Virus record (IMG/VR): IMGVR_UViG_3300005828_000112
Span: 1-52,128 of that record
Strand: one strand, 5' to 3'
DNA length: 52,128 bases
Source of the DNA: a virus
Shown: positions 5,795-52,128 of the stretch, piece by piece
Layout: every line of letters begins with the position of its first letter
Position numbering within the stretch: position 1 is the first letter of the stretch
The notes under the pieces: generated by a model
Told to the model about the DNA's origin: nothing
Databases searched by the model: none
The model's input: only the letters and a program-made list of their open reading frames with translations
Translations under genes and position numbers: made by a program

Positions 5795-7093
5795 ATGGCT
5801 AGGGCGGCAACGAAAAACAGTAGCAACGCGCGCGTCAGTAAGGCGGGCAAGGGGCCCGCAGCTACCGAAAAGCCGAAGGCCGAAGCGGCGGCAGAATGGG
5901 CAGCGCCAGCGAGCCTGATCCCCTGGCCGAAGAACCCGCGCAAGAACGATGACAACGTCGAGCGCGTGGCTGCGTCGATCAAGGCGTGGGGCTTCGGTTC
6001 GGCGCTGCTGGCGCGTCGACGCGACCGCATGATCATCGCGGGTCACACGCGATGGAAAGCAGCGACCGCACTGGGGCTCGAGCGCATCCCGGTGCGCTTC
6101 ATCGATTGCACCGATGCCGAGCTGCGCATGCTGGCGCTGGCCGACAACAAGCTGACCGAGCGGTCCGGCTGGGATGACGACCTGCTGACCCAGCTGCTGC
6201 GCGATGCCGATCCAGGGGACGCGCTGATCGCTGGATGGACGAACGACGAGCTCGACAAGCTGCTGACCGAATCCGACCGCACGACGCCCCTGGACGACGA
6301 CGACGTTCCCGACGTGCCAGCCGACCCGGTGACGAAGCTGGGCGACCGCTGGCGGCTGGGCGATCACCATCTGGTGTGCGGCGACTGCGAAGACGCACCG
6401 AGCCTGCTGGATGTCAGCGGCGCGGCGCTGATGGTGACCGATCCACCCTACGGCGTGAGCTACGGGTCGAAGAACGCCTACCTAAACGCGATGGATGGAG
6501 GCGACCGGATCGAAACGGAGATCGACAGCGACGACCTGACGCCGCAGGAAATGGTCGGCTTCTGGTTTCAGCGATTCAAGGCTGCCCGAAGCTTGCTTCG
6601 CCCAGGTGCAGCCTACTATTGCACCGGACCGCAAGGGCCCGAGCTGCGATCGCTGATGACCGCCCTGGACGATGCGGGTTTCCCGCTTCGCCACATGCTG
6701 ATCTGGGCGAAGCAGCAGTTCGTCTTAGGCCGATCGGACTACCACTATCAGCACGAGCCGATCCTGTACGGATGGCTTGATGGCGCTGCGCATCACGCGG
6801 TCAAGGATCGCGGTGAATCATCGCTATGGGAGATCGACAAGCCCCGATCCAGCGATGCACACCCAACGATGAAGCCCGTCGAGCTCTATGCGCGCGCCAT
6901 TCGAAACAGTTCGTCACGCGGCGAAGACGTGATCGACCCCTTCGCGGGGTCTGGAACGCTGGTGGCAGCGTGCGAACAAGTCGAACGCGTCGCGCACTGC
7001 ATCGAGCTCTCGCCCGCCTATTGCGACGTCATCATCCAGCGCTGGGAAGCGCTGTCTGGCGGCAAGGCGCAGCGGATCCGCCATGGCGGCTAA
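5795..7093 (+). CDS. ParB-like domain fused to DNA methyltransferase
   Basis: A 432-residue protein. Residues about 35-130 form a ParB/Spo0J-type N-terminal domain with the conserved GHTRWKAA box and LADNKLTE. Residues about 190-425 are a DNA amino-methyltransferase: motif IV is DPPYGVSY (near 216), and the SAM-binding motif I, DPFAGSGT, comes afterwards (near 383), which is the beta-class order. It should methylate adenine N6 or cytosine N4, with specificity unknown. Such fusions are common just before terminase genes in phages and may link DNA marking to packaging or protect from restriction. GAAGGGGG precedes the ATG. The gene overlaps the small terminase by 11 bases. Confidence 0.9.
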   Translation: MARAATKNSSNARVSKAGKGPAATEKPKAEAAAEWAAPASLIPWPKNPRKNDDNVERVAASIKAWGFGSALLARRRDRMIIAGHTRWKAATALGLERIPVRFIDCTDAELRMLALADNKLTERSGWDDDLLTQLLRDADPGDALIAGWTNDELDKLLTESDRTTPLDDDDVPDVPADPVTKLGDRWRLGDHHLVCGDCEDAPSLLDVSGAALMVTDPPYGVSYGSKNAYLNAMDGGDRIETEIDSDDLTPQEMVGFWFQRFKAARSLLRPGAAYYCTGPQGPELRSLMTALDDAGFPLRHMLIWAKQQFVLGRSDYHYQHEPILYGWLDGAAHHAVKDRGESSLWEIDKPRSSDAHPTMKPVELYARAIRNSSSRGEDVIDPFAGSGTLVAACEQVERVAHCIELSPAYCDVIIQRWEALSGGKAQRIRHGG

Positions 7094-20814: not shown

Positions 20815-22043
20815 TGGCTGCTGGATCGACGACGACCCCGGTGCGGGTCAAGGATGACAACGGCGACACCCAGGGGTCGGCGGCGAACCCGCTTCGCACT
20901 GATCCGACCGGGTCGACGACGCAGCCCATCAGCGCTGCTTCGCTGCCCCTTCCGGCTGGGGCGGCGACCGAAGCGACGCTGGCTGCCATCAGCACGAACA
21001 CGCCCGCCGTCGGTCAAACGACCATGGCGGCGAGCTCACCCGTCACCATCGCCAGCGACCAAACGGCGGTCGCGTCGAAGAATGCCGCGGCCAGCCAGGT
21101 CGACGGGCACAGCTCGAGCATCGGCGCGACCACGGACGCCGACACCGCGAACACCGTCATCGGACGGCTGAAGCAGGTGATCACCCGTCTGGCCGGCGGC
21201 TTGCCCGCTGCCCTGGTGGGGGGGCGCCTAGATTCGAACATCGGCGCATGGCTCGGAAGCACAGCGCCCACGGTCGCGCAGAAGGCGATGGCTGCATCCG
21301 TGCCAGTCGTGGTCGCCAGCGACCAGACTGCGGTCGCGTCGAAGAACGCCGCGGCCAGCCAGGTCGACGGGCACAGCTCGAGCATCGGTGCGACCACGGA
21401 CGCCGACACAGCGAACACCGTCATCGGGCGGCTGAAGCAGCAGGTGACGAAGCTGGCGGGCGGCCTTCCCGCCGCGCTGGTCGGCGGACGGCTCGATATC
21501 AACCTGGGATCGTGGCTGGGCGCGACAACGCCGACCGTCGGTCAAAAGGCAATGGCGGCGTCGATCCCCGTGGCGATGGCGTCGAACCAAACGGCGACAC
21601 CCACGAAAATCGAAGACGGTCAGGGCTCGGGCCGCCTTGCTGCTGTCGATTCGTCCTATCGTCTGCTGGTCAGCGCGAACGCGACCGTGATCCCGCCCGC
21701 TTCGGTCGCTGTCGAAGTCGAAGCGATCAGCAGTCTCACCGGAACAGCGGACAGCGTTTACGTCGTGCCTTCGGCGAAGCAGCTCACGATCACGCGCTTC
21801 GCTGGTGGATCCGAAGGTAACTCGGGCAAGGTGTCGAAGGTTTCGCTGTTCTATGACCCTGCAGGCACCGGCACCGGGATGACGTTGATCCGTGCGATGT
21901 ATCTCGGGACGACGAACTGGGAATTTGGGCTCGACTACAAAGTGCTAGGCGACGGGACGAAGGCGATCCGCATGCGGCGCGAACGCCTGGACGGCGCAGC
22001 TGATGAAGTCGCGGGCTTCTGGTCTGGCTTCCGGGATGTGTGA
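20814..22043 (+). CDS. Repeat-containing fibre protein
   Basis: A 409-residue protein rich in Ala, Thr and Ser. Residues about 65-240 contain two tandem copies of an 88-residue unit (for example DQTAVASKNAAASQVDGHSS occurs twice, and GGLPAALVGGRLD twice) plus a partial third copy; the DNA period is 264 bases. The last 120 residues form a different, strand-rich domain beginning SVAVEVEAISSLTGTADSVY, like the modules of neighbouring genes. This layout (short head, repeated shaft, end domain) suggests a thin fibre on the virion. It starts by overlapping the previous gene. Confidence 0.65.
   Translation: MAAGSTTTPVRVKDDNGDTQGSAANPLRTDPTGSTTQPISAASLPLPAGAATEATLAAISTNTPAVGQTTMAASSPVTIASDQTAVASKNAAASQVDGHSSSIGATTDADTANTVIGRLKQVITRLAGGLPAALVGGRLDSNIGAWLGSTAPTVAQKAMAASVPVVVASDQTAVASKNAAASQVDGHSSSIGATTDADTANTVIGRLKQQVTKLAGGLPAALVGGRLDINLGSWLGATTPTVGQKAMAASIPVAMASNQTATPTKIEDGQGSGRLAAVDSSYRLLVSANATVIPPASVAVEVEAISSLTGTADSVYVVPSAKQLTITRFAGGSEGNSGKVSKVSLFYDPAGTGTGMTLIRAMYLGTTNWEFGLDYKVLGDGTKAIRMRRERLDGAADEVAGFWSGFRDV
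21051..21578 (+). repeat. Two tandem 264-bp coding repeats
   Basis: Copy 1 begins at the GCCAGCGACC near 21051 and copy 2 at 21315, an offset of exactly 264 bases (88 codons). The copies are nearly identical over their first 110 bases or so and drift toward the 3' end. A degenerate third copy starts near 21579. In-frame length keeps the protein intact, so copy number could vary. Confidence 0.85.
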
Positions 22044-45636: not shown

Positions 45637-45894
45637 ATGGGGGCACTAGCTGACTTGCTTCGGGACAAGCGCGGGGCTCGAGCGCGCGTCGCGCGTCAGG
45701 CCGAATGCAGCTTCAGGTCGATCCGCCTGGCCGAACGTGGCGAGCTGCGGTCGCTGCAGGCCGCCGAACGCATCGCAGCGGTGACCGGCTGCCCGATAGC
45801 CGAAATGATGCCGTTCGCCGATGCAGGCGCGGCCAGAGAGGGCGACAACGATGGCGACGAAGAAGACGAAGGCGAAGACGCGCGACATCCGTGA
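45637..45894 (+). CDS. Small Cro/CI-like HTH regulator
   Basis: An 85-residue protein. Residues about 5-52 (LADLLRDKRGARARVARQAE, then FRSIRLAERGELRSLQAAER and IAAVTGCPIAEMM) resemble the five-helix HTH_3 layout. The last 25 residues are strongly acidic. It is the first gene of the rightward early operon, divergent from the recombination operon, the classic place for a switch regulator. The start has no good ribosome binding site. A palindrome lies just upstream. The frame is open for eleven codons before this ATG. Confidence 0.6.
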   Translation: MGALADLLRDKRGARARVARQAECSFRSIRLAERGELRSLQAAERIAAVTGCPIAEMMPFADAGAAREGDNDGDEEDEGEDARHP

Positions 45895-46489
45895 TGAGCT
45901 CGTGCCGCGCCTGTTTTCTATCCGCGCGGGGATGCCGATCGAACGCTTCACGCCGCCCGCCTACGTCGGGCCTGACGTGCTCGTGGTCGATGCGCCCTGG
46001 AAGCCCAGCGACAAGCTACCGGGCCCAGGTCGCGGTGCGTCGAAGCACTACCAGACGCTGACCGTCGAAGACATCGCGCGCTTCCCGCTGCCGCCGACCG
46101 TGCACGATTCGGTGCTCTTCTTCTGGCGACTGGCTTCGATGGTCGACGAAGCGCTGCATGTGGTGCGCTGCTGGGGATATCAGCCGAAGTCAGAGCTCAT
46201 CTGGGAAAAGCTCACCAAACACGGCAAGCGGCACATGGGCATGGGTCGATACGTCCGCAACGAACACGAAGTGTGCATCATCGCGGTGCGCGGCAAAGCC
46301 AAGCCGCTGGTGCACGACCAGCGTTCGATCTTCGCTGCGCCCATCGGGCAGCATTCGGAAAAGCCCGATGCGTTCTATGAGATCGTCGAGCGGATGTATC
46401 CGCAGTCGCGGCGCTTCGAGCTGTTCAGCCGCCGCCATCGTGCCGGCTGGATCCAATACGGCAACGAACTAGGAAAGCTGAATCAATGA
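45851..46489 (+). CDS. MT-A70 family adenine methyltransferase (DAPW variant)
   Basis: A 212-residue protein of the MT-A70 family, which methylates the N6 of adenine in DNA or RNA. The catalytic motif IV reads DAPW (47-50) in VLVVDAPWKP instead of the usual DPPW. Later signatures are SVLFFWRL, YQPKSELIWEKLTKHGKRHM, MGMGRYVRNEHEVCIIAVRG and the ending PDAFYEIVERMYP, all characteristic. A basic N-terminus of about ten residues comes first. GAGAGGG precedes the ATG. The stop overlaps queC, placing it in one transcript with the deazaguanine genes. Confidence 0.88.
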   Translation: MATKKTKAKTRDIRDELVPRLFSIRAGMPIERFTPPAYVGPDVLVVDAPWKPSDKLPGPGRGASKHYQTLTVEDIARFPLPPTVHDSVLFFWRLASMVDEALHVVRCWGYQPKSELIWEKLTKHGKRHMGMGRYVRNEHEVCIIAVRGKAKPLVHDQRSIFAAPIGQHSEKPDAFYEIVERMYPQSRRFELFSRRHRAGWIQYGNELGKLNQ

Positions 46490-47157
46490 GCAAGGCGATA
46501 GTCCTTTTCTCAGGAGGCATGGATTCGACGATCGCGCTTTTTTGGGCGCGTGCGCGTCACGACGATGTCGTCGCACTGACGATCGAATATGGCCAGAAGC
46601 ACTGGATCGAGATCAGTCAGGCATCGAAGATCGCGCGACGAGCCAAAGTGCGACACGAGATCGACCACATGGGCGCGAAGGGGATCGGTCCACGTTGCGC
46701 ACTGCGATCGATCGGAACGCGCATCGACAGCGAAGAAGCTGCGATCGTGCCGGGTCGGAACCTGATGTTCCTTGCGATTGCTTCTGGCTGGGCGGAATCG
46801 ACCGGATCCGACGCGATCGTCGCGGGGTTTTCGTTGGAAGATGCCAAAGCATTTCCAGACTGCAGACCCGCGTTTGTTCGCGCCGCGCAGGATGCTGTAT
46901 CGACGTCCATGGATCGCAGGATTCGGATCGACGTTCCGCTGATTACGCTATCGAAATCCGATGCGCTCCATCTGGGGGCATCGTTGCCAGGGTGCTGGGA
47001 ATCGATCCTATTGTCCTGGACCTGTTACGAACCGCGACCCGTCGGGCTAACTTCGGGATCGTTTACGCAATGCGGGCTTTGTCCATCCTGCACAAGACGC
47101 GCTGCTGCGTTCGCGGCTGCTGGTCTCACTGATGCGGCTTTGGAGGCTAGGGGTTGA
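46486..47157 (+). CDS. queC: QueC, 7-cyano-7-deazaguanine synthase
   Basis: A 223-residue enzyme that turns 7-carboxy-7-deazaguanine into preQ0 using ammonia and ATP. The PP-loop SGGMDST lies at residues 9-15. VALTIEYGQKHWIE follows, and VPGRNLMFLAIASGWAESTG is the conserved central segment. A zinc site is formed by Cys in WTCYEP and the CGLCPSC cluster near the C-terminus. Length is normal and all key elements are present. The base composition is less GC-rich than in the flanking genes, suggesting separate origin. It overlaps both neighbours as ATGA. Confidence 0.93.
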   Translation: MSKAIVLFSGGMDSTIALFWARARHDDVVALTIEYGQKHWIEISQASKIARRAKVRHEIDHMGAKGIGPRCALRSIGTRIDSEEAAIVPGRNLMFLAIASGWAESTGSDAIVAGFSLEDAKAFPDCRPAFVRAAQDAVSTSMDRRIRIDVPLITLSKSDALHLGASLPGCWESILLSWTCYEPRPVGLTSGSFTQCGLCPSCTRRAAAFAAAGLTDAALEARG

Positions 47158-47507
47158 TGACGATTACGATCAGTCGCGTTTACAGTTTCCAGTCGGCGCA
47201 CTGGCTGCCGATGGTCGACAGAAGCCACAAGTGTGCAGCCATGCATGGCCACAGTTATGAGCTTACTGTCGAAGTCAGCGGAGATGTCGACCCGTCTGGG
47301 TGGATCCGAGACTTCGCTGATGTTGATCGATTCGTGGATCCACTGGTCGCTCGACTGGATCATCATTGTTTGAACGACATCATCGGGAACCCAACATGTG
47401 AAAACGTCGCGGTCTGGTTCGCCACGAATCTCCTGGGTGATCTTCCTGATCTTGCGTCTGTCCGGGTGGCTGAAACAGGGAGATCAAGCGCGAAATGGTT
47501 ACGTTGA
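47154..47507 (+). CDS. queD: QueD, 6-carboxytetrahydropterin synthase
   Basis: A 117-residue enzyme of the PTPS fold that makes 6-carboxy-tetrahydropterin from dihydroneopterin triphosphate, an early step of deazaguanine synthesis. Zinc ligands are His16 in FQSAHW and His31 and His33 in MHGHSY; Cys27 in HKCAAM is the catalytic cysteine. Later come LDHHCLND, PTCENVAVWF and VRVAETG. Length is normal. GC content is low for this genome (one 60-base stretch from 47341 counts 50%). It overlaps queC and dpdA. Confidence 0.92.
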   Translation: MMTITISRVYSFQSAHWLPMVDRSHKCAAMHGHSYELTVEVSGDVDPSGWIRDFADVDRFVDPLVARLDHHCLNDIIGNPTCENVAVWFATNLLGDLPDLASVRVAETGRSSAKWLR

Positions 47508-48121
47508 TCCTGTATGCGTCCAGGACCGGAACAAAGCGGAACCTCGCTGAGATGAGGCGTTTCGGCTGGCGTGTACTGATCAGCGCTGCGGGTGTCTGGA
47601 GATCGGAAGGTTTTCCCTATGCGATCGACAACGGCGCATGGACGTCGCATCAGCGCATGGAACCGTTCGACCATGGTCGATACCAGACACTGCTATCGAT
47701 GATGGGCGTAGGCGCTGACTGGATTGTCATTCCCGATGTCGTCGGGGATGCCCATGCGACAGCTATCATGACCGATCGGTGGGTCCCGAAGGTCGCTTCA
47801 CTGCGGGCGCTTGCGGTGATTCAAGACGGTGCGGATGCGCGGGACCTAGATCGCCTGTTGGGTCATGTTCATGGCTTCTTCCTGGGCGGATCCACTGAAT
47901 ACAAGCTTGCGAATCTCGACTCCTGGGCGCGGTACGCGCTCGAGCGAAATCTATATTTCCATGTCGGTCGCGTGAATAGCGCCCGCCGCATTCAGAAGTG
48001 CAAGGCTGCGGGTGCTCATTCAATCGATGGGACGTCGGCCAGCCGGTTTTCAGCAAACACAGCGGGCTTGACCAGGGCAGCCATTGCCCCAGCTCAGCTG
48101 TCGATAAGGTGGGCGAAATGA
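47495..48121 (+). CDS. dpdA: DpdA-like deazaguanine DNA transglycosylase
   Basis: A 208-residue protein resembling the short phage DpdA proteins, relatives of tRNA-guanine transglycosylase that swap guanine in DNA for a 7-deazaguanine. Visible blocks are YAIDNGAW (42-49), WIVIPDVVGDAHAT (76-89), FFLGGSTEYKL (128-138), HVGRVNSARRI (156-166) and SIDGT (176-180). Asp45, Asp81 and Asp85 are candidate catalytic acids. It follows queC and queD directly, which strongly supports the call. With preQ0 as the local product, the expected base is 7-cyano-7-deazaguanine. GC content is low, as in queC-queD. Confidence 0.85.
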   Translation: MVTLILYASRTGTKRNLAEMRRFGWRVLISAAGVWRSEGFPYAIDNGAWTSHQRMEPFDHGRYQTLLSMMGVGADWIVIPDVVGDAHATAIMTDRWVPKVASLRALAVIQDGADARDLDRLLGHVHGFFLGGSTEYKLANLDSWARYALERNLYFHVGRVNSARRIQKCKAAGAHSIDGTSASRFSANTAGLTRAAIAPAQLSIRWAK

Positions 48122-51389: not shown

Positions 51390-52128
51390 ATGAAGCTAGG
51401 CTACGCGTTCGCGCCTGCGCCGTTGAATCTGGCCATGCGCTGGTACCAGGTATCGTTCTACGATCGCGCCGTCGGGGGCGAACTGTACCGCGTCACGGCG
51501 GGCGAAAGCGTCGCGGTAGGCGATGACTGGGTCGAGACGATCTGCTGTCGCATGGGCGTGTCTGGGCCCCAGCGGCCGAACCTGATCCGGTCGCTGCGAC
51601 GCCTCGAGTCCAAGGGGCTGATCCGCATCCGCGAAGGAATGCTGACGGTGCTTTTCTACGCTGAAGGCGTATCCGTTGACGATGCGGAAAAGACAGCCCC
51701 AGCGGACGAAAAGCGACGTCCAGGTCGATCCCAGGTCGCACCCAGGTCGCACCCAGGTCGATCCCAGGTCGATCCCAGGTCGCACCCAGGTCGCACCCAG
51801 GTCGATCCCACGTTTGACCTAAGTGTCGGGGATCCTTCACTTCACAAAACACAGATCAGATCAGATCAGATCAGAAGAGAGAGAGATCAGAGCGCGCGCG
51901 CGGAATCCGGGCCCGAAATCCAGCCCGAAGAAGCGCCCGAAACCGGGCCCGAAGAAACCCCGATCCAGCCCCCCAGCGCACCGCCGCCGCAGGGCCCCCC
52001 AGAAGCCCCGTCACGGCCCGACGTGCCGCAGGCGAACGACCGACCGGACGAAGCGAGAACGGCCCGCGCTGCCCACTGCCTACTGCTCACTGGAAAGTTC
52101 CCCATGCACCGGCCCGATGCGGAAACCC
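51390..52128 (+). CDS. Replication-initiator-like protein with internal repeats, cut by window end
   Basis: At least 246 residues, incomplete at the 3' end. Residues about 1-90 look like a winged-helix initiator or DnaD/lambda-O-type domain: AMRWYQVSFYDRAVGGELYR, a helix around VGDDWVETICCRMGV, then RPNLIRSLRRLESKGLIRIR and a wing strand. Residues about 111-140 are encoded by eight 11-bp DNA repeats and read as repeats of about 11 residues (PGRSQVAPRSH). The remainder is Pro/Glu-rich and probably disordered. The repeats within the gene recall the origin inside lambda O. If the molecule is circular the frame ends at base 50 of this window. Confidence 0.7.
   Translation, partial: MKLGYAFAPAPLNLAMRWYQVSFYDRAVGGELYRVTAGESVAVGDDWVETICCRMGVSGPQRPNLIRSLRRLESKGLIRIREGMLTVLFYAEGVSVDDAEKTAPADEKRRPGRSQVAPRSHPGRSQVDPRSHPGRTQVDPTFDLSVGDPSLHKTQIRSDQIRRERDQSARAESGPEIQPEEAPETGPEETPIQPPSAPPPQGPPEAPSRPDVPQANDRPDEARTARAAHCLLLTGKFPMHRPDAET
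51720..51807 (+). repeat. Eight tandem 11-bp repeats, iteron-like
   Basis: Eight exact-length units of CCAGGTCGATC (A) or CCAGGTCGCAC (B) run head to tail in the order ABBAABBA, so the 44-bp block ABBA is present twice. A degenerate ninth unit (CCACGTTTGAC) follows. The 11-bp spacing is close to one helical turn, placing all units on about one face of the DNA. They lie inside the initiator-like gene, as do iterons in lambda O. Confidence 0.9.
51808..51890 (+). other. AT-richer segment with AGATC repeats, candidate unwinding region
   Basis: Directly after the iterons the sequence becomes clearly less GC-rich (CACGTTTGACCTAAG, CTTCACTTCACAAAACAC) and holds four tandem AGATC units (51853-51872) and a GA-rich run. 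In lambda an AT-rich stretch beside the iterons is the place where strands open. This is inference from layout. Confidence 0.45.

Follow-up and report, generated by a model that had tools for sequence, protein, structure and literature searches.

A partial queC-queD operon with a short DpdA-like protein in a contractile-tail phage, a probable variant of deazaguanine DNA-modification systems

Introduction

Deazaguanine modification of DNA is a known anti-restriction strategy of phages, and many of them carry only fragments of the pathway. The stretch of DNA analyzed here, referred to as the window, comprises 52,128 nt of the IMG/VR record IMGVR_UViG_3300005828_000112, a fragment of an uncultivated contractile-tail phage with terminase, portal, tail sheath and baseplate genes. 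A cassette for this kind of modification was originally predicted in it, consisting of an MT-A70 adenine methylase, two enzymes of the preQ0 pathway and a DpdA-like transglycosylase. The locus raises the question of whether a phage with part of the pathway and a transglycosylase candidate of only 208 aa could exchange guanine for a deazaguanine in its own DNA.

Organization of the operon

The four overlapping plus-strand genes of the original prediction are all present as ORFs between 45821 and 48121, with the following features:

45821..46489 (alternative start 45851), plus strand: MT-A70 family adenine methyltransferase (PF05063, phrog_359, DAPW motif)
46486..47157, plus strand: queC, 7-cyano-7-deazaguanine (preQ0) synthase (TIGR00364, motifs, match to 3bl5)
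47157..47507 (alternative start TTG at 47154), plus strand: queD, 6-carboxytetrahydropterin synthase (PF01242, match to 4ntm)
47495..48121, plus strand: predicted short DpdA-like guanine transglycosylase, 208 aa (phrog_15826, TIM-barrel model)
46486..48121, plus strand: low-GC, probably transferred unit queC-queD-dpdA (GC, GC3, same genes in contig L008)

The start first proposed for the methylase gene, 45851, is an in-frame ATG, and the ORF extends upstream of it to 45821. The MT-A70 and queC genes share the 4 nt ATGA, queC and queD overlap by 1 nt in TGATG when the ATG at 47157 is taken as the start of queD, and queD and dpdA overlap by 13 nt. A RecE/RecT pair is divergent from the operon, and a gene for an SLT-type lytic transglycosylase comes after it.

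QueC and QueD

Both preQ0-pathway enzymes were identified by profile and structure matches. QueC matches PF06508 (E 2e-52), passes the TIGR00364 equivalog with 161.5 bits against a cut-off of 150.3, and matches the solved QueC 3bl5 (3e-27). Compared with the published motif set SGGxDS, YxQxHxxE, VPxRN, YPDC and Cys4 (PMC13329287), the protein keeps SGGMDS, YGQKHWIE, VPGRN, FPDC and the four cysteines, with F in place of Y in YPDC and a longer spacing at the first cysteine. The corresponding Y131F variant of Escherichia coli QueC retains partial activity (PMC13329287). An assignment to the defence proteins QatC or Cap9 was considered and rejected, since the protein has the canonical QueC motifs and scores above the TIGR00364 cut-off; the QatC model gives 22.8 against a cut-off of 280. 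QueD matches PF01242 (E 6e-25, 88 bits, cut-off 22.4) and the solved 6-carboxy-5,6,7,8-tetrahydropterin synthase chains 4ntm (6e-25) and 2oba (4e-28), and its score with TIGR03367 is narrowly under the cut-off (82.9 bits, cut-off 89.25). The active site residues Cys, HGH, DHH and ET are conserved between it and solved QueD proteins.

Methylases of the window

The first protein of the operon matches PF05063 (E 3e-24, 86.2 bits, cut-off 23.9) and the DNA methyltransferase family phrog_359 (2e-53), and its DAPW aligns to the DPPW of solved MT-A70 proteins. The score above cut-off and the DPPW-type motif place it in the MT-A70 family, a membership that by sequence is compatible with either DNA or RNA as substrate. 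By its composition, described below, the methylase gene is native to the phage, a modification gene in its own right that shares the operon with the que unit. A second predicted DNA methyltransferase was found at 5795-7093, adjoining the terminase, where a ParB-like domain is fused to a CcrM-like DNA methylase. Adenine methylation may be added to the phage DNA by these two putative enzymes.

Composition and transfer of the unit

The genes from queC to dpdA had been described as less GC-rich than both flanks, and this is borne out over the whole window. Their GC content of 57.6% is the minimum of the window, compared with a mean of 65.6% (sd 1.5%) in equal-sized windows outside the unit (z = -5.4), the lowest of which has 61.2%. 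The GC3 values are 0.63 for queC, 0.57 for queD and 0.64 for dpdA. The two genes that come next have 0.79 and 0.87, the MT-A70 gene has 0.80, and terminase and portal have 0.81-0.83. The dip therefore excludes the MT-A70 gene, whose GC3 is phage-like. By composition, the proposal of transfer as a unit applies to queC-queD-dpdA, which looks foreign, and does not extend to the methylase gene with its native GC3. The three genes were probably acquired together by transfer, and the MT-A70 gene, judged by composition, is probably a gene of the phage backbone outside the transferred unit. The unit recurs with its gene order unchanged in L008 (IMG/VR 3300049926_000150), a contig of 16.6 kb that has no other gene in common with the window. 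Its queD and dpdA likewise overlap by 13 nt, and the identities to the window proteins are 57% for DpdA, 54-56% for QueD and 41-42% for QueC.

The 208-aa protein and its relatives

The protein encoded at 47495-48121 is not a canonical DpdA. The canonical phage DpdA profile, which recovers the canonical DpdAs of phages Sonali and R29Z, has no match in the window. No match to Pfam or NCBIfam was obtained with the 208-aa protein, and sequence searches of PDB gave nothing useful. A search of phage records at the nucleotide level found no relatives. The protein belongs instead to phrog_15826, a family listed with "unknown function" (8e-41, residues 5-193, most of its length). Its relatives are mostly 200-225 aa long, compared with about 300 aa for canonical DpdA, which has a C-terminal region after the barrel; this C-terminal third is absent from the 208-aa protein. 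Proteins of two Erythrobacter phages are 41-43% identical to it, and mycobacteriophage proteins annotated as "DpdA-like tRNA-guanine transglycosylase" about 30%. A total of 415 relatives were detected among IMG/VR contigs by profile search, and 80 of them were retrieved. One member, gp101 of Erythrobacter phage ZS04 (contig L003, 6001-6642), is annotated as a "DarB-like antirestriction protein", and this annotation looks doubtful.

Homology of the short family to known transglycosylases is weak at the sequence level. In whole-genome searches its profile weakly matches both canonical DpdAs of phage Megan (1.5e-4), alignment of the family to canonical DpdA with hhalign gives E 0.001, and the TGT family PF01702 matches four of 66 members with a best value of 0.03. 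A match to DUF3151 in 12 of the 66 members (best E 0.0016) is weak and was set aside as probably due to chance. Since the canonical profile misses the protein and the homology is weak, we treat it as a distinct lineage. The short family may coincide with a DpdA subfamily already described in 2023.

The predicted structure points in the same direction as these weak matches. AlphaFold2 predicts a TIM barrel with a pLDDT of 93. Among viral models searched with Foldseek, the best named match is the canonical phage DpdA of Mufasa8 (E 6e-8, TM 0.68), followed at lower ranks by further DpdAs and by DpdA2 of Vibrio phage nt-1. TGT structures rank prominently in the Foldseek search of PDB (E from 4e-5, TM 0.60-0.67), with ribulose-phosphate epimerase and other TIM barrels scoring equally well; the fold alone is thus insufficient for an assignment to TGT or DpdA. 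Sequence motifs were found to agree with it. In an alignment of 126 rows, D45 in DNG is conserved in 123 of 124 homologues with a residue at that position and D178 in DG(T/S) in all 121, and the motifs DNG, PD, QDG, GG, HxxRVN, DG(T/S) come in the same linear order as their counterparts DSG, DVIGD, HxG, IGG, HGxGIT, DSSSW of canonical DpdA. As placed by motif and not by superposition, D45 and D178 are aspartates of the catalytic type. The original assignment as a DpdA-like transglycosylase is supported by the predicted TGT fold, the aspartates and the linkage to que genes, with the correction that the protein is of a short lineage that, from sequence and model, probably works like DpdA and is distinct from canonical DpdA.

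The closeness of TGT enzymes in the PDB search, where they rank as near as any other structure, also fits a role of the operon in the infected host's metabolism of tRNA queuosine or deazaguanine, with more preQ0 made for tRNA and none placed in phage DNA. QueC and QueD are ordinary enzymes of tRNA queuosine synthesis, and phages with que genes and no DpdA were proposed to boost host queuosine (PMC6884629). However, hosts bearing the pathway already own a TGT. The short family is carried by phages, many prophages have it on its own, and the closest viral models are phage DpdAs proposed to insert preQ0 into DNA. We regard the tRNA role as very improbable and return to modification of phage DNA.

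Genomic linkage of the short family to deazaguanine genes

A que gene is directly adjacent to the short gene in 28 of the 80 retrieved IMG/VR relatives (queC in 23, queE in six and queD in five), a count that includes near-duplicates such as L023/L024 and L077/L081, so that the number of independent cases is slightly lower. Among the immediate neighbors, QueC forms the largest family. For comparison, the QueC of the window was matched anywhere in 335 of 50,697 phage records. In contig L051, a single ORF (673-1947) encodes DpdA-QueD in the reverse of the window's order, either as a natural fusion or through a lost stop codon. A membrane protein of the Vut_1 family, similar to the preQ0 transporter of E. 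coli phage CAjan, lies directly upstream of the short gene in StevieRay (Fishburnevirus) and in Rhodococcus phage ReqiPine5, and the pairing recurs on a Micromonospora contig. On these gene neighborhoods, the deazaguanine link of the short family is supported independently by que adjacency, fusion and transporter-like neighbors.

About two thirds of the relatives have no que gene nearby, which speaks against the proposed role. None was found near the 38 relatives from bacterial genome contigs, many of them of Pseudomonas, Paraburkholderia and Sphingobium; these 38 loci would fit hosts that may make their own preQ0. In six loci without que genes (L014, L018, L019, L028, L040 and L042) an ORF for a cupin-like protein of about 143 aa adjoins the short gene and could encode a tailoring enzyme.

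In three isolate phages the short protein accompanies a canonical DpdA. Sonali and R29Z, two phages with full pathways, have both, the short protein lying next to the canonical one in a complete que operon. In Escherichia phage phiG7 (contig L160, 8941-9533) the short protein is split over the two ORFs gp20 and gp21 beside canonical DpdA and DNA polymerase, as the result of gene disruption, a frameshift or a sequencing error. These arrangements, and the missing C-terminal third, would suit an accessory of the deazaguanine pathway, either a partner subunit, a specificity factor or a second inserter with another target or base, instead of the sole inserter of preQ0. Against this, neither the window nor any of its 29 que-linked relatives, many of which are fragments, is matched by the canonical DpdA profile, and conservation of the catalytic-type aspartates would be needless in a partner without catalytic function. 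An accessory role is thus considered unlikely, compared with insertion of preQ0 by the short protein itself.

Missing steps and host supply

The preQ0-pathway part of the predicted cassette was confirmed for queC and queD, and the pathway is incomplete: the window, itself a fragment, has no match to GTP_cyclohydroI (FolE) or Radical_SAM (QueE). The record L135 (IMGVR_UViG_3300005825_000019), 99.7% identical over 18.9 kb, reaches 5.6 kb beyond the window start, and the window is thus a fragment of a larger genome. FolE and QueE profiles had no match on this extra 5.6 kb, nor radical SAM on L135. The absence of the cassette from L135 is uninformative, since that record ends near 38.9 kb of the window, before the cassette. 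More distant terminase relatives, most of them fragments, gave no match to the short family. With QueE and FolE missing from the window and L135, the phage alone cannot make preQ0.

Across the window and the 29 que-linked relatives, L084 alone has FolE and seven records have a radical SAM protein, and partial sets prevail (queC only, queC with queD, or queE only). Because partial pathways are usual in the short family, supply of dihydroneopterin triphosphate and CDG by the host is the simplest reading, with genes beyond the ends of the window, and of the many other records that are fragments, as a further possible source.

In L008 dpdA is directly followed by queE, whereas no queE and no remnant of one was found behind dpdA in the window. 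The cassette could accordingly be imagined as degraded, with queE lost after transfer and the DNA no longer modified, or as idle in a host without the missing steps. There is a precedent in phage Orion, which encodes DpdA and has unmodified DNA when its host lacks preQ0 (PMC8306585). Yet the three ORFs are intact, their catalytic motifs are kept, and the partial que sets of the relatives fit host supply; a non-functional cassette appears improbable, and a working, host-supplied one is preferred.

Proposed pathway and product

We consider it likely, from sequence and structure prediction, that queC-queD-dpdA is a transferable deazaguanine DNA-modification module, through which preQ0 would be made from host intermediates and inserted into phage DNA. 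In the proposed route, host FolE would provide dihydroneopterin triphosphate (H2NTP), phage QueD would convert it to carboxytetrahydropterin (CPH4), host QueE would turn CPH4 into CDG, and phage QueC would convert CDG to preQ0 (PMC13329287). Once the phage DNA has been replicated, the short DpdA-like enzyme would swap guanine in it for preQ0, and the modified DNA would be shielded from restriction enzymes. The analysis establishes the genes, their order, the foreign composition, the predicted fold, the conserved catalytic-type aspartates and the recurring que linkage; the route follows known enzymology, and we infer which steps the host takes, DNA as the substrate, the base that is made and the anti-restriction role. 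Because no amidotransferase domain is fused to QueC or was recognized among the scanned proteins, the expected base would be dPreQ0, or dADG if the nitrile is hydrolyzed; the latter is the base in phage 7-11 (PMC6884629, PMC8306585).

A broader proposal, which we hold with evenly divided confidence, is that the proteins of about 205 aa are a minimal subfamily of their own among DNA guanine transglycosylases, which could exchange bases even though the C-terminal part of DpdA is missing. They would travel with phages as a plug-in module, accompanied by genes that suit the host in question. Where the host probably makes its own preQ0, a prophage would need nothing extra, phages of actinobacteria would carry a preQ0 transporter, and others would carry queC, queD or queE. 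This offers a testable explanation for partial pathways, in which the minimal transglycosylase comes with the precursor step that is lacking or limiting in the host. It would also flag several hundred metagenomic phage contigs, filed under "unknown function", as probable DNA modifiers, and a DNA transglycosylase of about 200 aa, if confirmed, would be a convenient tool for exchanging bases in DNA.

Comparison with known systems

Phage CAjan, the Rosebush-group mycobacteriophages and Arthrobacter phage Sonali, for which dPreQ0 is predicted, have queC and queD beside a TGT-fold transglycosylase as in the window. They differ from it in encoding FolE, QueE and a DpdA of about 300 aa, whereas the window has neither enzyme and carries the 208-aa lineage. 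Members of the window's short family, with about 30% identity and the same motifs, occur in Fishburnevirus mycobacteriophages, in ReqiPine5 and as gp81 of Sonali; there the genes adjoin either a complete que operon or a homologue of a preQ0 transporter, in contrast to the partial queC-queD operon of the window. Vibrio phage nt-1, with its DpdA2, and Campylobacter phage CP220 are deazaguanine-pathway phages, as predicted for the window phage, and the short-family profile has no match anywhere in their genomes. By sequence and model, the window probably holds a partial cassette that depends on the host, with a DpdA-like enzyme that is short and non-canonical, and as such a variant of the known deazaguanine systems.

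Repeats in the window

Two repeats were observed elsewhere in the window. An imperfect direct repeat of 250 bases, 81.6% identical, occupies 21049-21298 and 21313-21562 inside a putative structural gene. Near the window end, at 51720-51810, an array contains 8.3 copies of an 11-base unit (CCAGGTCGAAC).
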